A DNA stretch of 33,478 nucleotides from a virus: positions 1 to 33,478 of the IMG/VR virus record IMGVR_UViG_3300042564_001192; one strand, given 5' to 3'. The position numbers and the translations under genes were made by a program. Numbering within the stretch: position 1 is the first letter of the stretch; the number at the start of each line of letters is the position of its first letter. Shown piece by piece: positions 5,964-29,270 of the stretch. The notes beneath the pieces were generated by a model. It worked only from the letters and a program-made list of their open reading frames with translations, did no database searches and was not told the DNA's origin.

Positions 5964-6252
5964 ACTTTGCCTTCAGTCTTGCTAAAAGAGCTAACTCAGT
6001 TGCTCGTGTGTTGTCCTCATCAACTTTTTGTTCTATAACACGAGTATTACGTTCTTCAGGGGTTTCATCTCTTTCCCCTATGATTGATAGCACTAATGTA
6101 TCATCATAGTCATAATCTACATCAAAACGAAGAAGCCAATCAGGGTGTCTTAGTATTGCATCATCGATAGAGCATCTGATATACTCTAATTCGTAACCAT
6201 CCATCCAACTATTTGGGCTACCAAGCTCCTCTAACTTTTTACGAATTTTCAT
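5956..6252 (-). CDS. Hypothetical acidic protein (98 aa)
   Basis: Begins MKIRKKLEELGSPNSWMDGY, has a DVDYDYDDTLVLSII strand-like segment (about 44-58) and ends in a helical ELALLARLKAKYE tail. Starts inside the end of the macro-domain gene (14-base overlap). No recognised motif. Confidence 0.75.
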   Translation of the reverse strand: MKIRKKLEELGSPNSWMDGYELEYIRCSIDDAILRHPDWLLRFDVDYDYDDTLVLSIIGERDETPEERNTRVIEQKVDEDNTRATELALLARLKAKYE

Positions 6253-6718
6253 TTGTATACTCCACCAGTGTTACTGTTCCTGTGATTATTTCGCTGAAGT
6301 CTTCTAACAACCCTACAATGATCTGCTTGTTACCTCCCGCTAGACCCATGCCAATATACGGAAATCCAAACCTTGCTTGTCCATGATACTTAGCTAGATT
6401 TCGAAGAATTTTTTCAAATGCAACATATTCAAACCGATCTTTAAACTCTTCACCTTTTTTGTTGTAGGTTAGCTGAGTATACGCATTAACAATTGTAAAC
6501 CCATCTGCTTCAGCAAAGGTTACACTACCCAACTTATTCTCAGGACTACGCCTGTCATCCACATCAGCATAGAACGCTTGTGGATATTGCTCTCTGATTT
6601 GTCTAGCGATTCCTGAGTTCATTGTACTCTGACAGTTTGCTCCATGAACAACTATGTCAAAGTGACCTTGTCGAGCAAGCTCAAGCAAGTCACCCTTCAT
6701 CTTCTTCAACGTAGTCAT
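6239..6718 (-). CDS. Macro-domain protein (ADP-ribose binding / ADP-ribose-1''-phosphatase type)
   Basis: The 159-residue protein is a single macro domain. HGANCQSTMNSGIARQI (25-41) contains the ADP-ribose-binding NCQ...GIA motif, and GFPYIGMGLAGGN (118-130) is the phosphate-binding loop. The family binds ADP-ribose or removes phosphate from ADP-ribose-1''-phosphate; some members reverse protein or nucleic-acid ADP-ribosylation. It lies three genes downstream of an RNA kinase/ligase pair and in the same operon as NAD-salvage enzymes, which suggests handling of ADP-ribose produced by RNA repair or host NADases. Which activity it has cannot be decided from sequence. Confidence 0.85.
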   Translation of the reverse strand: MTTLKKMKGDLLELARQGHFDIVVHGANCQSTMNSGIARQIREQYPQAFYADVDDRRSPENKLGSVTFAEADGFTIVNAYTQLTYNKKGEEFKDRFEYVAFEKILRNLAKYHGQARFGFPYIGMGLAGGNKQIIVGLLEDFSEIITGTVTLVEYTNENS

Positions 6719-8990: not shown

Positions 8991-9143
8991 TTATTTTCCT
9001 TCAATGATATAGAACAAAATACGCATCAGTGAAAAACCAACGACAATAGGTACTAGAAGTTGCCACGGTGCAAACACAAGGAAAGACACCGCAGCAATCG
9101 CAACTATTACCGCAGCTAAGACTACAGTAATAGGGTACTTCAT
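8991..9143 (-). CDS. Small two-helix membrane protein B (50 aa)
   Basis: Begins MKYPITVVLAAVIVAIAAVSF and ends SLMRILFYIIEGK. Two hydrophobic helices at about 5-23 and 27-46. Coupled to nadV by an ATGA overlap and followed immediately by membrane protein A, its probable paralogue. Unknown function. Confidence 0.7.
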   Translation of the reverse strand: MKYPITVVLAAVIVAIAAVSFLVFAPWQLLVPIVVGFSLMRILFYIIEGK

Positions 9144-10630
9144 TTCAGAGTCAATTCAACACGAGCACGAATGTTGTCAAGAGAATCATCAATCACGAGC
9201 TTACCGTTCAAGAATACAGTCTGCAAACAACCCTGTGTTTCCTGCTCTACTGTTTGCTGATCATACAGAACGTAAGTGTCACCCTCACGCTCAACACGAA
9301 GCAGACCCTTAGCAGACTTCTTAACACCAGTGTCTGTTACCGGATCCTTGAACAACTCTTGACCTACACCATCGATCTCACAATAAGTAGCCTTCATAGC
9401 AAAACCGTGAGTGTCACGAGTCACATACTGGTATGTATATGAGCCCACACCAAACACTGTATTGCAAGAGGCAAACCCTTTGTCAGCCAATCGTTTCATA
9501 ATCCGATTAGCACGATCAAGTGTAATTGAGTCACCGTAGATCAAGCCAACTCGTTGATTCAGCACCTTGAAACCTTTGTCAGTTACAGTACCACCGAATG
9601 TATCCCACAAACACTCAACAGCACCTTTATATGCAGGTGAACCAGTCGTAGCAGTAGGGTCACCACACAAAATATCTACTGGATCACCTGAGTCCGGACG
9701 GAACACTACCTTGGCAAGACCCAACTCATTTGGTTTACGATCGAGGATTTCCTGTTTCAGTGCTGCAGCTGTCTCCGTAATCACATGCCAGAAGTCCCAT
9801 GTATCGCTAACAATACTGACCACACCGCTTGGACAAACCTCAGTAATCAATCGGCGATACGTCTCAAGCTCAGTATCCTTACCACCAGCACTCATAACAG
9901 AATGTTCAGAGGCAGGTACAGAACCACCAACAAAACTATCACGAGCATTATAATAACGCTCAAGATAGTCAATAGCTGGAATAGTGTCAGTACCAAGGAA
10001 ACTCAGCAAGTGACCAGCAGCAGAGCTTGCATCATGCAAACCACTCAAGCCACGGAGACTAAAATCGTGACCCTGCCACAATACAAAGTCCAATGGTGAG
10101 CCTGTTTTGGTAGCGTAGTCTTGAATCAACTTACGGTACTCGTAGGCTGTAGTAGCTGTAGTGCAAGATTTCCAGAGTTCAGCGCTCAGAGCAGTCTCAA
10201 GATAGTTTGGCAACCATCCAAAGTCAGGGTGAGTGTTTGCAATTGTCATAACCGGAACTTTAGTAGGAACCAGTGAACCTTCTGGAAGAGCTTTAATCTG
10301 AATAGGCAAGTAGCCAAGCTTATGCAATGCAGCAATGTGAGAAGAGTCTACCGAGCCTTGACCCAAGCTTGTATTGTTTCGGCGGTCGTACTCGCTAATC
10401 ACCAGACCCAAAGGCTGATCAAAGAAACCCTTCTGGAATGCATCAACCAAGAACCACTTTACAAAACCTTGCAGACCGAAGAAGACAATCTTAGAGTCCT
10501 TATTAGCTGCATAGTTATTTGATCGTGGTGTAAAGTTACTATAGATCTTTGTCAAGCCATTTGGGTACATGGCTTTATGCCCAACCTTGTAAAAGTCGCA
10601 AGCAGTGATAGGATTGATAAATGTATTCAT
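9140..10630 (-). CDS. nadV: Nicotinamide phosphoribosyltransferase family (NadV/NAMPT-like)
   Basis: Classically makes nicotinamide mononucleotide from nicotinamide and PRPP, the key step of NAD+ salvage. The 496-residue length is full for the family. Recognised landmarks: DFYKVGHKAMYP (12-23), LGTD (212-215), VPASEHSVM (238-246) with the active-site His243, and VVFRPDSGDPVD (308-319) with the substrate-binding Arg/Asp. It lies just downstream of a prs-like gene, the pair found in many phages. In the NARP1 anti-defence pathway the homologous enzyme (Namat) instead joins nicotinamide to ADP-ribose pyrophosphate; sequence reading alone cannot tell which substrate is used here. Confidence 0.93.
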   Translation of the reverse strand: MNTFINPITACDFYKVGHKAMYPNGLTKIYSNFTPRSNNYAANKDSKIVFFGLQGFVKWFLVDAFQKGFFDQPLGLVISEYDRRNNTSLGQGSVDSSHIAALHKLGYLPIQIKALPEGSLVPTKVPVMTIANTHPDFGWLPNYLETALSAELWKSCTTATTAYEYRKLIQDYATKTGSPLDFVLWQGHDFSLRGLSGLHDASSAAGHLLSFLGTDTIPAIDYLERYYNARDSFVGGSVPASEHSVMSAGGKDTELETYRRLITEVCPSGVVSIVSDTWDFWHVITETAAALKQEILDRKPNELGLAKVVFRPDSGDPVDILCGDPTATTGSPAYKGAVECLWDTFGGTVTDKGFKVLNQRVGLIYGDSITLDRANRIMKRLADKGFASCNTVFGVGSYTYQYVTRDTHGFAMKATYCEIDGVGQELFKDPVTDTGVKKSAKGLLRVEREGDTYVLYDQQTVEQETQGCLQTVFLNGKLVIDDSLDNIRARVELTLK

Positions 10631-10642
10631 TTCAAACTTTCT

Positions 10643-11467
10643 TTAAATAGTTTCAGGCATTAACTTACCGAGAACTTTAACTCGGAGTGCATCATTGTTG
10701 TACAAGTTAGAACAGTACACAGTGTCAAATACATCGTGTAGCTCTTTATCTCCTTTTGAGAACAAACCGTGGGTTACATACAAATCAAGTCGATCTAGCT
10801 GTGGTTGAGTATCACGTAGCATCCGACCAAGAGCTAGGAAGGTAGCGCCTCCATCACACAAGTCATCAACAACACACGCAGTGCCCACAAGAGAGTCCCT
10901 TTCATAGTTGTCATAGGCTACCCCATTAGCTGTACGTGTCTTTGTCAAGTAGACAGCATCTGATAGCTTGTTGCGTACTTGGTAGTGGTCAAGCAGTTTG
11001 TTATGCGCACCTAAGTCAGGTGCAATCATGGTGTCATACTTAGGTAACCACCTTGCACATTGATCTTGGTGGTTAACAATAAGCTCATAACTATTTGAAC
11101 TTAGTGTCTCAATCGTCTTAGTACTATGAGGATCGTCAATAATCACATTTCGGCAGTAAGACATAGACCGGAACATTCTAGTAAACACCTCTAGTGCATT
11201 ACTCTCACCTGAATGACACACACGATCTTGACGAGCGTATGGTACATATGGCATGCGAATAGAAATGTTGTCCTTGTTTACACCAGCCTCTCTAAGCGCA
11301 TCAAGCAAGTTAAAATACACAATCAAGTCTTGACTGTTAGGAACCCAGAGTGTTACCCAAGTCTCTACATCTCGAATTGTGTCAGGTAGTTTTACACCAA
11401 CTTCTTTACCGGGAAACAACCAAGTTTTGAAGTCAATCTCAATAGCATTTTGTTCAAGGACGATCAT
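10643..11467 (-). CDS. prs: Ribose-phosphate pyrophosphokinase family (Prs-like; possible ADP-ribose pyrophosphate synthetase)
   Basis: Makes PRPP from ribose-5-phosphate and ATP, supplying NadV. The 274-residue protein is shorter than cellular Prs (about 315). It keeps MPYVPYARQDR (72-82), IIDDPHST (109-116) and the PRPP-binding loop VVDDLCDGGATF (199-210). The N-terminal 'FSGxxx' region of cellular Prs is replaced by a divergent sequence. In phages this family includes Adps enzymes that pyrophosphorylate ADP-ribose (NARP1). Located 12 bases before nadV in the same operon. Confidence 0.9.
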   Translation of the reverse strand: MIVLEQNAIEIDFKTWLFPGKEVGVKLPDTIRDVETWVTLWVPNSQDLIVYFNLLDALREAGVNKDNISIRMPYVPYARQDRVCHSGESNALEVFTRMFRSMSYCRNVIIDDPHSTKTIETLSSNSYELIVNHQDQCARWLPKYDTMIAPDLGAHNKLLDHYQVRNKLSDAVYLTKTRTANGVAYDNYERDSLVGTACVVDDLCDGGATFLALGRMLRDTQPQLDRLDLYVTHGLFSKGDKELHDVFDTVYCSNLYNNDALRVKVLGKLMPETI

Positions 11468-11760: not shown

Positions 11761-12035
11761 ACAATTAGTGCTGCAAAATATTTTTGAAGTAATTGAATTT
11801 CTTCAGGAGTAATCGGCGGTAAGGGCTCTACCCAAGACTGGACTTTATAGATTGAATTACGAGTTTCAAATGTATTCTCATCTATTTGCCTCAAGATTAG
11901 ACTAGAATACATATAGCGATGTACAAGGTCACGCCGCTCTTCGTGAGCAAGACAATTTCCCTGTAATCGCAACGGGTTGTTGTCTTCGTCTCGCAACAAA
12001 GTAGCATCTTTTAAAAAGCCAATTGGTTTAGTCAT
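11757..12035 (-). CDS. Hypothetical protein (92 aa)
   Basis: Start at ATG 12035 (MTKPIGFLKDATLLRDED); an upstream in-frame start would run inside the preceding gene. The middle contains HEERRDLVHRYMYSSLI and the C-terminus PLPPITPEEIQLLQKY. Unknown function. Overlaps the upstream stop by 8 bases. Confidence 0.65.
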   Translation of the reverse strand: MTKPIGFLKDATLLRDEDNNPLRLQGNCLAHEERRDLVHRYMYSSLILRQIDENTFETRNSIYKVQSWVEPLPPITPEEIQLLQKYFAALIV

Positions 12036-12447
12036 AAATTTTGATATCCTCTGTTTTTCGATAAACAAGTTCTGTTTCAAATAATTCCTGATACAGTGGA
12101 TGAAGTCCTGGAACCATTGTTCTCAATATAGCTTCAATGTGGTCATTAGACATTGATTTAAGTTGTACATGTTTTAACGGTTGATCTCCATCTTTACCAT
12201 AAGTACCCCAACTAAAGTATTCACGTTGAAGATTAAAAGGATCATCACTATACACTGACAATTCAGTATACGGTTCAGACTGACCTACAGACCTGCGTAA
12301 ATAGTCTAGCCCACCATCAACCATGTAAGTCTCACCGTTCTTATCAGTGTACTCCTTATAGTCGTGTCGATTAAATGACTGTAATATTGTACCATCTGGT
12401 GTACAAATCAAGTTTGCAACCAGTTGCCTTGGATTAGATTCCGTCAT
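12028..12447 (-). CDS. Conserved phage protein of unknown function (139 aa)
   Basis: Start at ATG 12447 (MTESNPRQLVANLI), with GGGG upstream. Contains TPDGTILQSFNRHDYKEYTD and YMVDGGLDYLRRS, signatures of a protein family I have met in many tailed phages without known role. The family features invariant His-Asp and Gly-Gly-Leu-Asp segments, perhaps structural. Full length. Confidence 0.8.
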   Translation of the reverse strand: MTESNPRQLVANLICTPDGTILQSFNRHDYKEYTDKNGETYMVDGGLDYLRRSVGQSEPYTELSVYSDDPFNLQREYFSWGTYGKDGDQPLKHVQLKSMSNDHIEAILRTMVPGLHPLYQELFETELVYRKTEDIKIYD

Positions 12448-12655
12448 ATTCAATACCCCATTTTAAACAGAAGGCCTTGACTTTCTCGATAACCTCTTGA
12501 TTGTACTCAATCATGCTATCCCAACTCTCTGGATTGTCTTCGTAGAAGTCTCCACCACAACCGCAATCACAACCGAACTTTACTTTAGTATACTCATCTG
12601 AGTAAAGTACATTACCATAATCAGATGCTAGATCTGAAATTTCACTCCACTTCAT
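12434..12655 (-). CDS. Small Cys-rich acidic protein (73 aa)
   Basis: Start at ATG 12655, seven bases after AAAGGAGA; an ATG at 12673 is in frame but precedes that site. The centre has FGCDCGCGGDFYED (about 28-41), a compact three-Cys cluster that may bind metal. Acidic helical C-terminus. Overlaps the upstream ClpX-type zinc finger gene by 14 bases. Confidence 0.7.
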   Translation of the reverse strand: MKWSEISDLASDYGNVLYSDEYTKVKFGCDCGCGGDFYEDNPESWDSMIEYNQEVIEKVKAFCLKWGIEYDGI

Positions 12656-12821
12656 TGAGTCTCTCCTTTGCATGTGCTACACACTCGTTACAAATGTGTT
12701 TTGAATGTAAGCCTTCTTGTCCATTATGAAAAAGATGCTTAACTTGATCTTCAGATTTTTTACAAAAAGAACAAATACCATCTCTTTTTTCGGGACGTTT
12801 GAAGGGTACGATGTTGCTCAT
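12642..12821 (-). CDS. Stand-alone ClpX-type C4 zinc finger protein (59 aa)
   Basis: Consists almost entirely of a ClpX N-terminal zinc-binding domain: CSFCKKSEDQVKHL (17-30) and HICNECV (42-48), with Cys17, Cys20, Cys44 and Cys47. E. coli ClpX has the same CSFCGKS...V..L...YICDEC order, with 18 rather than 23 residues between the pairs. In ClpX this domain dimerises and binds adaptors and substrates such as SspB and lambda O. No AAA+ module is attached. The phage also encodes a ClpP homologue (25005-25646). I infer an adaptor or decoy acting on host ClpX. ATGA-style packing with neighbours supports a real gene. Confidence 0.8.
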   Translation of the reverse strand: MSNIVPFKRPEKRDGICSFCKKSEDQVKHLFHNGQEGLHSKHICNECVAHAKERLNEVE

Positions 12822-12975
12822 TCTTTAGTCTTTCAATTTCATTAGCTGCTTCTTCAAGCAAGTCTGCAATACGATCAGGTTCACCATTCTGAACAGAACG
12901 CCTTGTAGGGATCTGCCTTCGAATTGCTGCTCTAATCCTTAAGCGTTCGATCAATGTTTGTTGTCGTACGTCCAT
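12760..12975 (-). CDS. Hypothetical basic helical protein (71 aa)
   Basis: MDVRQQTLIERLRIRAAIRR leads to a basic segment, then RIADLLEEAANEIERLK (about 35-51), a helix typical of many small phage proteins (DLLxxAAxEIxRL). The C-terminal 20 residues overprint the first 62 bases of the ClpX-type zinc finger gene in another frame. Unknown function. Confidence 0.7.
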   Translation of the reverse strand: MDVRQQTLIERLRIRAAIRRQIPTRRSVQNGEPDRIADLLEEAANEIERLKNEQHRTLQTSRKKRWYLFFL

Positions 12976-13376
12976 CCAAGCTCTTTCATCATCTTATGTT
13001 TAACAAGTAAATTAGGGCTTCTAAAAACACCAGTGTCTTCAAAACCCATCATTACACCAACCTCACAAACAGCTCCACTACGACATACACCAGCAACACA
13101 ATGAACAACTACATTCATTTCTTTGTCGTATGCATGTTTAAGAAGACTTACAAGCTCTTTTGCTTGTTCATCAGTTACACAAAACTCCGAACCGAAAGCT
13201 TCATTACCTTCTAAATCAAGAAATTCAAATTGATGCGTTTCTGTAAACTGGTGTAAAGGTTCTGGAAATTCCATAAGCGGATCTACAATCTGAATTAACA
13301 TTGAGTTAGAACCAGCAGGTTTATGAAAACCTTTTCGAATATCAGCTAGAGATACGTTCTGAATCCACGGTTGCAT
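12951..13376 (-). CDS. Cys-dependent phosphatase (protein-tyrosine / dual-specificity phosphatase fold)
   Basis: Start at ATG 13376, preceded by AAAGGTGG. The 141-residue protein has the P-loop VVHCVAGVCRSG (90-101), matching HCX5RS with catalytic Cys93 and Arg99. DEQAKELVSLLKHAY just before it forms the usual preceding helix. Such phage enzymes may dephosphorylate host proteins, or act on RNA 5' ends or nucleotides; the sequence does not say which. The frame extends upstream without support. Confidence 0.82.
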   Translation of the reverse strand: MQPWIQNVSLADIRKGFHKPAGSNSMLIQIVDPLMEFPEPLHQFTETHQFEFLDLEGNEAFGSEFCVTDEQAKELVSLLKHAYDKEMNVVVHCVAGVCRSGAVCEVGVMMGFEDTGVFRSPNLLVKHKMMKELGWTYDNKH

Positions 13377-13551
13377 TCCACCCACCTTTCTCCCAACTTT
13401 TAAAGGTTGCTCTTGACATGTCAATAACGTGCTTAGGAAAGACCCTTGAAGTACCTGCATACCATTCGTCCTCAAAAGAACAACTACAACTTGCTAAGAA
13501 ATGTTCATACTCAGCATCCCATACCCACAAAGGTAAAGCATTCCAACTCAT
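13342..13551 (-). CDS. Hypothetical protein (69 aa)
   Basis: MSWNALPLWVWDAEYEHFLASCSC... Trp-rich with a Cys pair and a C-terminal SWEKGGWNATVDSERISS. ATGA overlap with the upstream membrane protein and 35-base overlap with the phosphatase gene. Unknown. Confidence 0.65.
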   Translation of the reverse strand: MSWNALPLWVWDAEYEHFLASCSCSFEDEWYAGTSRVFPKHVIDMSRATFKSWEKGGWNATVDSERISS

Positions 13552-13691
13552 GAGGCAAGCTTCCAGAGACCAATGTTTGCAAAGGCATATCCAGCATAAG
13601 CTACAGCCATACCGGAGTTACCTTTCAAACCTTGCTCAAGTGCAACATAAGCGTAAATTGCACCTGTTAATGCGATTAACCAACCTGACAT
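13548..13691 (-). CDS. Small membrane protein, two helices (47 aa)
   Basis: MSGWLIALTGAIYAYVALEQGLKGNSGMAVAYAGYAFANIGLWKLAS in outline: hydrophobic helices at about 3-17 and 27-45 around a polar EQGLKGNSG loop. Strong ribosome-binding site AAGGAG before ATG 13691. Similar short hydrophobic proteins are common in phages. A membrane location is inferred; holin function is possible but unproven. Confidence 0.72.
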   Translation of the reverse strand: MSGWLIALTGAIYAYVALEQGLKGNSGMAVAYAGYAFANIGLWKLAS

Positions 13692-15322: not shown

Positions 15323-15459
15323 TTATACCTTTCCATTAACTCTCTACGTTGAAGATCAAGCATCCTTAAATGCTTGTCTAGTTTGTCAAACTGTCTCGTA
15401 TCATACAATGCTAGCGCTTCACTACCTTTGGCTAGTAGCACACCTTTATACATGACCAT
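15319..15459 (-). CDS. Hypothetical small protein (46 aa)
   Basis: MVMYKGVLLAKGSEALALYD leading to a basic amphipathic helix (LDKHLRMLDLQRRELMERYK). Starts in a TAATG overlap with the SPFH lipoprotein gene and ends in a GTGA overlap. Unknown. Confidence 0.6.
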   Translation of the reverse strand: MVMYKGVLLAKGSEALALYDTRQFDKLDKHLRMLDLQRRELMERYK

Positions 15460-16259
15460 TATTTTACGTTTACCATACCTTTAAAGTCCATTGGAACAAC
15501 AATAGTGTTTACCTTACCAGCAGCAATACCTTCAGCAATCTTCATTTGAGCCTGAGCATTCATATACTGGATACTCTGACCTGAGTTAGATGCTAATGCT
15601 GCCATACGCTCAGACTCTTTCTTAGCGATAGCAACTTCGGTTTCTTTAATTCGAAGTTCATTTTGAGCCTTGACGTACTCAGTTGCTGACTTCAGAATTT
15701 CTTCGTTAGGCAAAATAGAACGAATCGCAATAGATGTTACTTTGATAGCCTTAGAGAGACCATCCTCATCAAGCTTTTCTTGTACTAGCTCAAGGATAGA
15801 CTTCTCAAGAGCTTCACGTTTATCACCAACTTCAAGAGCCTTATATGCACGTACAGCTTTGTAGCTTGCATTGTTTAAGGAGGTTTCAATATAGGTCGCC
15901 ATCAATAATACATCACCATCTTTTTCAGTAGCATGGAAGCTCTTTGACTTTTGTGAGTACAACTCCGCTACACTTCCTTGATCAATACTGTACACCATAG
16001 TAATGTCAAAGTCACTTAGCTTTGTATTGTCACCTGTCTGATACATCTTGTTATTAAGACTAACTTGAATGTCTCGTGTAGGAAATGTCAAGACATCACC
16101 GATAATAGTTTGAGCCATTGAGCCGGGAAGAATTTCAGTTCCTTGGACTTGTTTATAGGCATCTACACGAACACCTACTTCACCTGTACCAATACGGGTA
16201 CAAGCTTGGAGGGAAACGAGAGCAGCAACGATAGCAGTGATTTTGAAGAATTTGTTCAT
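15459..16259 (-). CDS. SPFH/Band 7 (prohibitin-like) lipoprotein
   Basis: The 266-residue protein has a type II signal peptide with lipobox LQAC, so Cys20 should be lipidated. The SPFH domain follows: GEVGVRVDAYKQVQGTEILP (about 26-45), FPTRDIQVSL (59-68), VYSID, then SILPNEEI and a long helical flotillin-like region (about 190-235). It ends in NTIVVPMDF, as in bacterial prohibitin-like proteins. SPFH proteins form membrane-associated rings that scaffold or restrain membrane proteases such as FtsH. A phage copy could protect phage products from proteolysis, guard the envelope or interfere with superinfecting phages; none of this is shown by sequence. Confidence 0.85.
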   Translation of the reverse strand: MNKFFKITAIVAALVSLQACTRIGTGEVGVRVDAYKQVQGTEILPGSMAQTIIGDVLTFPTRDIQVSLNNKMYQTGDNTKLSDFDITMVYSIDQGSVAELYSQKSKSFHATEKDGDVLLMATYIETSLNNASYKAVRAYKALEVGDKREALEKSILELVQEKLDEDGLSKAIKVTSIAIRSILPNEEILKSATEYVKAQNELRIKETEVAIAKKESERMAALASNSGQSIQYMNAQAQMKIAEGIAAGKVNTIVVPMDFKGMVNVK

Positions 16260-24846: not shown

Positions 24847-25005
24847 TTAAATATTAAAGTTATTTTTAGTAGCAAGCATTGCATTACTCTCTGCTAAATC
24901 AGTATCCATTCCACCTTCAAACTCAAAGATTGCTGCTCTATCTTCAAAGAAGTCAAGCTGATCATCATTTAAGCTTAAAATAAAATCGGCAATTTCTTTA
25001 GTCAT
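24847..25005 (-). CDS. Hypothetical acidic protein (52 aa)
   Basis: MTKEIADFILSLNDDQLDFF, acidic and Phe-rich, ending LATKNNFNI. TAATG overlap with the ClpP gene stop. Followed directly by the hairpin at 24815-24840, so it is the last gene of that transcription segment. Unknown. Confidence 0.68.
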   Translation of the reverse strand: MTKEIADFILSLNDDQLDFFEDRAAIFEFEGGMDTDLAESNAMLATKNNFNI

Positions 25006-25646
25006 TATTGATAAGTCTTTACTACTTCGTCACAGATACCATGAAGAACTGCTTCTTCAGGAGTTAAATAAACATCAGAGGATTGTAACAAATGCTTACG
25101 GATGTAGGCATCAGTTTTCTTTGTACACTTACGGTAGTGCAGTAGCATACGAGCACTATCTAGAGTAACCTCCTTAGCCGCTGCAACGATCTCATGCTCT
25201 TTACCACCAAAACCTCGTGAGTATTGGTGAGACATAATAGCTGTAGTTTCAGTTACAAATCGGTTACCCTTGTCACCAGCCATAAGGATCATAACACCTG
25301 CTGAAGCGACTTCACCCAGACCAATTGTATGGACTGGAATAGGCGACTGCTTCATGATGTCAATCAAATGGTATGCTGAACTAGCCATACCACCGGGAGT
25401 ATTAACAAACAACGTAATGTGGTCAGGTTGATCATCGGGATGCATTAAATTGTATTCCATAATACCTTGGATAATAGGTTGTACGGAATCATCATCTACC
25501 TCACCCATCAACATAAGAACACCATTAAGCATCATGTTCTTACCAAAGAAATAAGGTCCACTTACTTCTTCGTGTTCAACTTCAACAGGCTTGGTATTCT
25601 GAAGCCGTGAGGATTTGTTTGCTTGGCATCCGAAGAGTTTGGTCAT
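25005..25646 (-). CDS. clpP: ClpP-family serine protease
   Basis: A 213-residue ClpP/crotonase-fold peptidase. The catalytic triad is visible: Ser115 in GEVASAGVMI (111-120), His140 in MSHQYSRG (138-145) and Asp191 in SSDVYLTPEEA (189-199). LFVNTPGGMASSAY (79-92) is the oxyanion-forming Gly-rich segment. Length is near cellular ClpP (about 207), with a divergent N-terminus instead of a processed propeptide. Some phages use ClpP-like proteases in head maturation, but those usually sit with capsid genes; this one lies beside ribonucleotide reductase genes, which points to a regulatory or host-directed role. AAGGA precedes ATG 25646. Confidence 0.88.
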   Translation of the reverse strand: MTKLFGCQANKSSRLQNTKPVEVEHEEVSGPYFFGKNMMLNGVLMLMGEVDDDSVQPIIQGIMEYNLMHPDDQPDHITLFVNTPGGMASSAYHLIDIMKQSPIPVHTIGLGEVASAGVMILMAGDKGNRFVTETTAIMSHQYSRGFGGKEHEIVAAAKEVTLDSARMLLHYRKCTKKTDAYIRKHLLQSSDVYLTPEEAVLHGICDEVVKTYQ

Positions 25647-27275: not shown

Positions 27276-29270
27276 TTATCCTTCACATGCTTTGCATTCG
27301 TTATCTTCCTCAACATTTGCAGTTACAAAGAACTTAAGTAGTTCATTTAATCCACCTACATAATCACCATTTAAATAAATTTGCGGTAGTGAACGGACAT
27401 CTTGTCGTCCTGTAATTTCTGCTGCGGTCTTACCAAGTTCAACGATATCCACATAATCATATGCAATACCTTTTGAGTTAAGTAAGCTTTTAGCTGTTTG
27501 ACATTGTGGGCAATTTGGCTTGCCATACACGACTGATCGATTATCATCTTGCAATTTGTTTTCCTCAACCTTTTTAGATACATTCTCTGCTCGTACTTTT
27601 GCCTCTGTGCGTAAATAGTACAAACCCTTTAAACCTTGTTTCCAAGCGGCAATATGGACATCCTTTACCACAGATCGATCAGCACCAGCGGGAAACGCTA
27701 AGTTAACTGATTGACCCTGACAAATATACTTCTGTCGATCAGCTGCATGCCGAACAACCCAGTGTTGGTCTAATTCAAAGAAAGTCTTATAAACTTGCTT
27801 TGTATCATCATCTAAGAAAGTTAGATGTTGTACAGAACCTCCATTAGTAATAATGTCAGACCAGACTTCCTCAGTATTCTTACCTATTGTCTCTAATACC
27901 TGCTCTAGGTACTTATTCTTTACTAGGAATGAACCAGCACGACCACGCTTAGTATAAGCATTTGCCTTGTTAGGCTCAATACTAGGTGAAGTACTTAACA
28001 AGTCTCCTGAAGAAGCATTTGGAGCTATGGCTAGTAAATGAGAATGTCGAATAGATAATGGAGCCATATCTAAAGCTGCACCTCGACTGCTTGCTAAACG
28101 AATAGAAGCTTTCTTAGCCTCTGACTTAATGTTAGCAAATACAGAATCATTTAACAATGCAGCTTTTTCACTTTCAAAGGCAAGGTTTCGTCTTTGGAGT
28201 AAGTAATGGAATCCCATAGCACCTAAACCAATAGAACGTTCACGCATAGCTGAATACTTTGCTCTTGCTAAACTATCTGGTGCATTCTCAATGAAATATT
28301 CAAGAACATTATCTAGCATTGTTACTAGATCTTGAATCATCGTAGTATCTTTCCAATCATCATAAAACTCGATGTTTGGAGAGCTTAGGCAACACACTGC
28401 TGTACGATCTTCATTAGTAGGTAAATGAATTTCATTACATAAGTTAGAGCCGTGAATCTTTAAACCTTTAGCCTTTAACTGTGCAGGGAGTGCAGCATTA
28501 GCAGTATCAATGAAGTTAAGGTAAGGCTCACCCGTACGAAACCTAGTTTCAAGTAGTTTACCATAGGTTTTACGAGCATCAAGGAACTCACCTGTTGGTC
28601 CCTTTTTAGGGTCAACAAGTTCATAGTCTGTGCCAGCTTCCACTGCTTGCATAAACTTATCAGTGATGTTAATTGCATTATGTAAATTTAAACATTTTCT
28701 GTTATTATCTCCAGTAGGAACACGAATGTTGATGAATTCTAAGACATCTGGATGATCGATATCTAGGTATGCAGCGTAAGAACCTTTACGAGTTTTACCC
28801 TGACGATAAGCGGTCATATCACTGTCAATTGTTGATAGGAAAGGAATTGGTCCAGGAGCAACATCAGATACAGACCGAATGTCAGACCAATGACCACCAA
28901 CACCACCTCCCATAACTGATAGCCACCTAATTTCAGAGCTATGATCAATAAGACCAGCAACAGTATCAGGTACATAGGTTAAGAAACATGAGATTGGCAT
29001 TCCTTTACCTTTACCATCGATATCAGGTGCATTTGATAAGACTGGAGAGGCAAACATAAACCATTTGTTTGAGACATAATCGTATAGACGTTGGGCTAGA
29101 GCCAAGTCAGTGTTACCTTTAAAGGTACTCCACGCTCTACAGGCACGAGCATAGACTTGTTGTGGAGAGTCTTCGCCATCTTTAGCGTAGAACTCAAGAA
29201 TCATTTCTTTTGCGTAGTCTGCTAAGAGTTCATCCTTTGTTAAGTCAATTTTAATATTGTAGTAATCCAT
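27276..29270 (-). CDS. nrdA: Ribonucleoside-diphosphate reductase alpha subunit with embedded glutaredoxin domain
   Basis: Class Ia R1 subunit reducing ribonucleotides to deoxyribonucleotides. Active-site residues: Cys95 (PISCFL), Asn276/Cys278/Glu280 (SNLCNEI), Cys294 (CCLSS) and the radical-path Tyr551/552 (GLYYLRT). The N-terminal ATP cone of E. coli NrdA is absent, so dATP feedback inhibition is probably lost. Residues 578-649 are a glutaredoxin domain (VYGKPNCPQCQTAK, SLPQIYLNGDYVGG) and the final CKACEG tail (659-664) restores the mobile Cys pair of NrdA. The electron donor is therefore built in, between body and tail. 664 residues in all. Upstream of nrdB by one base. Confidence 0.93.
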   Translation of the reverse strand: MDYYNIKIDLTKDELLADYAKEMILEFYAKDGEDSPQQVYARACRAWSTFKGNTDLALAQRLYDYVSNKWFMFASPVLSNAPDIDGKGKGMPISCFLTYVPDTVAGLIDHSSEIRWLSVMGGGVGGHWSDIRSVSDVAPGPIPFLSTIDSDMTAYRQGKTRKGSYAAYLDIDHPDVLEFINIRVPTGDNNRKCLNLHNAINITDKFMQAVEAGTDYELVDPKKGPTGEFLDARKTYGKLLETRFRTGEPYLNFIDTANAALPAQLKAKGLKIHGSNLCNEIHLPTNEDRTAVCCLSSPNIEFYDDWKDTTMIQDLVTMLDNVLEYFIENAPDSLARAKYSAMRERSIGLGAMGFHYLLQRRNLAFESEKAALLNDSVFANIKSEAKKASIRLASSRGAALDMAPLSIRHSHLLAIAPNASSGDLLSTSPSIEPNKANAYTKRGRAGSFLVKNKYLEQVLETIGKNTEEVWSDIITNGGSVQHLTFLDDDTKQVYKTFFELDQHWVVRHAADRQKYICQGQSVNLAFPAGADRSVVKDVHIAAWKQGLKGLYYLRTEAKVRAENVSKKVEENKLQDDNRSVVYGKPNCPQCQTAKSLLNSKGIAYDYVDIVELGKTAAEITGRQDVRSLPQIYLNGDYVGGLNELLKFFVTANVEEDNECKACEG

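Follow-up and report, generated by a model that had tools for sequence, protein, structure and literature searches.

A phage-encoded solitary ClpX-type zinc finger and its small subfamily with a putatively altered binding face

ClpX zinc fingers in bacteria and phages

The N-terminal zinc-binding domain (ZBD) of ClpX (PF06689; structures 2ds5, 2ds6, 2ds7, and 1ovx) is where several ligands meet. On the ZBD dimer, a single hydrophobic region near F16 and I46 accommodates trigger factor, lambda O, SspB, and RssB, and the degradation of lambda O needs the ZBD (PMC7804408). The free ZBD dimerises, and adding the E. coli ZBD inhibits the RssB-dependent degradation of sigma-S by ClpXP in vitro (PMC7226468, Fig. 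1d). ClpX recognizes lambda O by an N-terminal sequence, MTNTAKILNFGR (PMC7804408; PMC8138137), which has a TAK element in common with Dps tags (PMC8138137).

Some jumbo phages (PA5oct, phage G, and Lak) encode full-length ClpX proteins of about 400 amino acids, with the AAA+ module. Solitary ClpX fingers are also already catalogued in phages. In RefSeq, the 'ClpX C4-type zinc finger protein' of E. coli prophages (P88 type, PHROG 6797, which includes the P88 and D6 fingers) is a small phage protein with a solitary finger, and the P88 gene occurs in 109 of the 5,426 complete genomes of E. coli. A second kind is the 65-amino-acid finger of Detrevirus (PHROG 12435; L116 1201-1398, L117 1201-1398, and L120 1180-1377). 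These fingers of Pseudomonas phages lie close to primase/helicase and NinB/Orf genes, and they are labeled 'protease', 'Clp protease', or 'ATP-dependent Clp protease ATP-binding subunit'. Calling them proteases is misleading, since they have no catalytic or AAA+ part, and solitary phage ClpX fingers are often misannotated in this way. In the openly licensed literature that we searched, we found no functional study of a solitary phage ClpX finger, and the phrase 'ClpX C4-type zinc finger' does not occur. A Tolypothrix plasmid encodes a sigma-70-family factor (L125 856-1680) that has a tblastn match to the ClpX-type finger (53% across 32 residues, E = 0.03), a hint that the finger is in use outside ClpX.

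Here we describe a solitary finger from a small conserved subfamily with a presumed binding face unlike that of ClpX.

A ClpX-type finger without an AAA+ module

The window, the whole stretch of DNA that we analyzed, is an entire IMG/VR record of 33,478 bases and is likely a fragment. A 59-amino-acid ORF on its minus strand (translation MSNIVPFKRPEKRDGICSFCKKSEDQVKHLFHNGQEGLHSKHICNECVAHAKERLNEVE; Table 1) has two CxxC pairs (Cys17, Cys20, Cys44, and Cys47), just as the first-pass annotation, which gave no strand, had described when it called the protein essentially only a ClpX C4 zinc finger. The profile search that it had proposed as a check was significant: zf-C4_ClpX (PF06689) matched with 45.3 bits (E = 8.1e-12, cut-off 27), and in a six-frame scan of the record, this ORF was the sole match (43.6 bits). 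The lack of an AAA+ module was also borne out. The ORF has its stop at codon 60, so that no AAA+ module follows the finger, and an unrelated ORF of 73-79 amino acids overlaps its end; the NCBIfam clpX models reach only 20-25 bits (cut-offs 359-371) and match over their first ~45 positions only. The ORF is a genuine gene for a solitary ClpX-type zinc finger. It was fair to say that such a gene falls below common length cut-offs and is easily missed, although the class is already annotated in RefSeq. PADLOC gave no match for the finger or its neighboring genes.

Table 1. Features of the window that bear on the zinc finger.
Feature	Position	Strand	Evidence
Solitary ClpX-type C4 zinc-finger protein, 59 aa	12642..12821	-	Pfam, orthologues, dN/dS, fold match
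Accessory insertion, ~1.1 kb: phosphatase, 71-aa, zinc-finger, and 79-aa ORFs	12454..13547		tblastn synteny map
Protein-phosphatase-like gene (HCVAGVCRSG), first of the insertion	12951..13475	-	Pfam DSPc 26.8 bits, below cut-off 33.5
71-aa ORF upstream, overlaps finger start by 62 nt	12760..12975	-	Homologue in L009
79-aa ORF, next downstream gene	12434..12673	-	Sequence; no Pfam match
ClpP-like serine protease	25005..25646	-	Apparently intact triad; kept in phage group, without genetic link to finger

The protein is predicted to fold around one zinc ion. AlphaFold gave a poor model from the finger sequence alone (pLDDT 63) and, with 20 related sequences, a model with a mean pLDDT of 77 and block means of 77-90 for residues 21-59. 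Its best matches among solved structures were a ClpX-ClpP model and the ZBD crystals 2ds5, 2ds6, and 2ds7 (E = 0.02-0.06). For the three crystals, the target-normalised TM score was 0.78-0.82 and the Foldseek probability was 1.00; the E values (0.03-0.06) are modest, as is to be expected with about 43 residues. The best-named viral match was a 65-amino-acid 'Clp protease' of Pseudomonas phage PP9W2.

The finger resembles the ClpX ZBD in its C4 treble clef, its CSFC...ICxEC pattern, F16, other conserved hydrophobic residues, and fold, and differs in the missing AAA+ module, in changes at the positions of V33, Y34, L42, and I46, and in an added N-terminal NIVPF motif. The loop between the CxxC pairs has 23 residues, as in many phage ClpX proteins (including that of PA5oct), compared to 18-20 in the cellular-type ClpX proteins that we compared. 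The jumbo-phage proteins share the phage-encoded ClpX finger but carry the AAA+ module. The P88 finger is longer (110 amino acids, with an extra N-terminal segment). The Detrevirus finger is likewise solitary, about 60 residues long, and near replication and recombination genes, but its N- and C-terminal tails are different. Also, the P88 and Detrevirus fingers both keep the ClpX surface.

Orthologues in two other phage groups

Scans with a single protein, run on viral contigs and genomes, returned either no orthologue or only Blautia ClpX, and among the matches that we read from a search of named phages with the finger, there were only full-length or contig-end-truncated ClpX proteins (from gut contigs and Lak phages) and no solitary relatives. 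A DNA pattern anchored to the 23-residue loop picked out seven solitary relatives, all in one dataset (group B: L130, L136, L141, L151, L157, L160, and L164). With the group B alignment as the query, a scan added four further records (group C: L166, L167, L168, and L170), of which L166 and L167 are practically identical. The 11 records hence contain 10 non-redundant solitary orthologues. They are 42-57% identical to the window finger over the full length, with alignments that begin at residue 1, and PF06689 scored 46-53 bits on the four that were tested. The finger gene of L160 starts with GTG.

All members share an N-terminal motif, M(S/T)(D)N(I/V)(I/V)(P/N)(F/L), which reads MSNIVPF in the window protein. 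All of the loci that we fetched together contain 4,541 distinct candidate starts that have a Shine-Dalgarno-like sequence, and the strict motif was confined to those of the finger family. Pairwise dN/dS within the groups was 0.05-0.28 (except for one pair with no amino-acid change), and such low values among distinct orthologues imply that the finger genes are under purifying selection.

A changed binding face

We compared nine positions in the ZBDs of 22 full-length ClpX proteins, in five further solitary phage fingers, and in five members of the window subfamily. In the full-length ZBDs, the residue at F16 is hydrophobic or aromatic in 22 of 22, and that at I46 is hydrophobic in 22 of 22. 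In the other solitary phage fingers, all nine positions are hydrophobic, apart from one residue in one finger. In contrast, every tested member of the window subfamily, across all three phage groups, has K or R for V33, H or N for Y34, and H or K for L42; the positions of F16 (F19 in the window protein), I35, V40, and I47 stay hydrophobic. The position of I46 is Arg in the window protein (Arg54) and in group C, and Leu in group B. Only F16 and I46 have a documented place in the dimer interface or ligand groove (PMC7804408), and the other positions were assigned by alignment.

We infer from the changed surface that the finger's partner has probably changed too, and that the finger is less likely simply to mimic ClpX or to dimerise with it. 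Judging by these residues, solitary phage fingers seem to fall into two classes, those that keep the ClpX binding surface and those in which it is changed. If so, the split provides a simple test of which solitary fingers could hijack host ClpXP and which would do otherwise.

Gene neighborhood

Homologues of the genes at 13548-13691 and 12028-12453 adjoin each other in eight relatives of the phage (tblastn; L099, L101, L103, and L105-L109), with a gap of about 120-499 bp, compared to 1,094 bp in the window. Homologues of the phosphatase-like gene, 64-67% identical, are present in two records (L009 and L010) that have no zinc finger. The wide gap in the window, the narrow syntenic gap in relatives, and the phosphatase homologues without a finger together indicate that the finger lies in an accessory insertion (Table 1).

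The finger's ATG has no clear Shine-Dalgarno sequence (by eye), which, with the overlap between the finger gene and the upstream ORF, suggests that translation of the finger is coupled. The likely true start of the downstream 79-amino-acid ORF is the ATG at 12655 (73 amino acids), and by eye, the Shine-Dalgarno sequence of this shorter gene (AAAGGAGAG) sits within the 3' end of the finger gene. The 79-amino-acid ORF bears a cysteine motif, FGCDCGCGGDF, and matched no family. A scan with the neighboring Prs-like gene as the query found nothing.

In group B, the finger is part of a stretch of DNA-metabolism genes, in which the order is a Sak4-like annealing protein (PHROG 124), ORFs of 95 and 57 amino acids, the finger, DUF7173, and a DUF669/SSB-like gene, with ThyX and a deaminase-like gene nearby. 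In group C, the neighbors are small unknown genes, a DUF1289 protein, and a thymidylate-synthase-like ORF (the last by eye). As the neighbors differ between the three phage groups, genomic context is weak evidence.

Possible functions

The window finger is a real protein and ordinary in kind, and its interest lies in the surface change. Our leading explanation, which we hold tentatively and rate a little below an even chance, is that it is a re-specified protein-binding zinc module that serves as a small adaptor in the phage's accessory and DNA-metabolism gene set. The protein would fold around one zinc ion and act as a small protein-binding adaptor whose face, used by ClpX for substrates and adaptors, would have been re-specified from hydrophobic to polar or basic. 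Given such a face, the partner is probably not simply one of ClpX's own ligands or ClpX itself. On the other hand, an altered surface need not prevent binding to a host ClpX or adaptor that itself differs in sequence. The finger would have arrived in this phage with the ~1.1-kb cassette (the phosphatase, the 71-amino-acid protein, the finger, and the 73-amino-acid protein), and its translation is probably coupled to that of the overlapping ORF upstream.

The first-pass annotation had proposed that a free finger could act as a decoy, pair with host ClpX, or serve as an adaptor that redirects proteolysis. A decoy would keep adaptors and substrates that dock on the ZBD off host ClpXP and might, for example, protect a phage replication protein. 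The idea has a precedent in vitro, where isolated ClpX ZBD blocks RssB-mediated sigma-S degradation (PMC7226468); also, a single hydrophobic ZBD region is common to lambda O, SspB, and RssB, and lambda O degradation is ZBD-dependent (PMC7804408), and F16 is retained in the window finger. However, the subfamily has polar or charged residues at V33, Y34, and L42, and the window protein has Arg in place of I46, which weakens the proposal here, and we consider a decoy possible but doubtful. The P88, D6, Detrevirus, and Cr30 fingers keep nearly the whole ClpX surface, so this may be a role of the wider class. The same substitutions weaken the idea that the finger pairs with the N-domain of host ClpX and poisons the hexamer. 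Although free ClpX ZBD does form dimers (PMC7226468), the hydrophobic face is largely swapped for polar or charged residues, and heterodimers seem quite improbable. An alternative that leaves the zinc module free to hold another protein is that the N-terminal motif docks on host ClpX, as a ClpX-directed adaptor or a competing client. The finger N-termini (such as MSNIVPFKR and MTNIINFTE) resemble MTNTAKILNFGR of lambda O, whose degradation requires the ZBD, and the motif is kept in all members and exclusive to them in our sample. But the TAK part of the lambda O and Dps tags is missing, and the likeness, which we noticed post hoc, is gapped and spans about six residues, so we give it low weight and consider this alternative unlikely. 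It is improbable, in our estimate, that the subfamily combines a lambda O-like ClpX-recognition peptide with the re-specified zinc module to steer host ClpXP to or from chosen proteins during phage DNA replication.

It has also been suggested that the phage's own ClpP adds to the case for Clp manipulation. The ClpP-type ORF is real, and its Ser/His/Asp triad is apparently intact (by eye, in an alignment with bacterial ClpP). We gathered 49 related records with the ribonucleotide reductase as the query. A ClpP homologue (about 50-67% identity) is present in 15 of these, records of nearly 80 kb included, and PF06689 in none, even at E up to 10, in a search that was positive in control genomes. 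Conversely, none of the 11 records with an orthologous finger has a ClpP-family match. Fragments are among the records, although G004, G006, G014 (77-80 kb), and G061 (79 kb) are long. Since relatives have ClpP without the finger and other phages have the finger without ClpP, the two genes are not inherited together, and ClpP fails as support. That the finger partners the phage protease in a phage proteolysis system is suggested by the presence of both genes in one fragment, 12 kb apart. Yet this would have to hold despite the 15 relatives and 11 finger records that have just one of the two, and 59 residues hold no AAA+ part and no ClpP-binding loop. We rejected this partnership, as the most improbable reading, for the lack of co-occurrence among relatives. 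Manipulation of Clp by the finger is possible, with the phage ClpP, its main support, removed.

Other genes in the window

A nicotinamide/nicotinate phosphoribosyltransferase gene (NAPRTase, NAMPT_N; 9140-10630, minus strand) adjoins a ribose-phosphate pyrophosphokinase-like gene (10643-11467, minus strand), and both are absent from the syntenic relatives. We take this pair to have the layout of NARP1-type pathways, by which phages rebuild NAD+ against NAD-depleting defences. Near these genes is a macro-domain (ADP-ribose-binding) protein (6239-6718, minus strand; 23.2 bits, cut-off 22), which was not found in the relatives that we compared. The ribonucleotide reductase large subunit (27276-29270, minus strand) carries a C-terminal glutaredoxin domain in the same protein (PF02867 and PF00462), and many relatives match it across all 664 residues. 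Finally, a predicted lipoprotein with an SPFH/Band 7 domain (15459-16259, minus strand; 62.9 bits) has a 66% identical homologue in another record (G018, locus L112).
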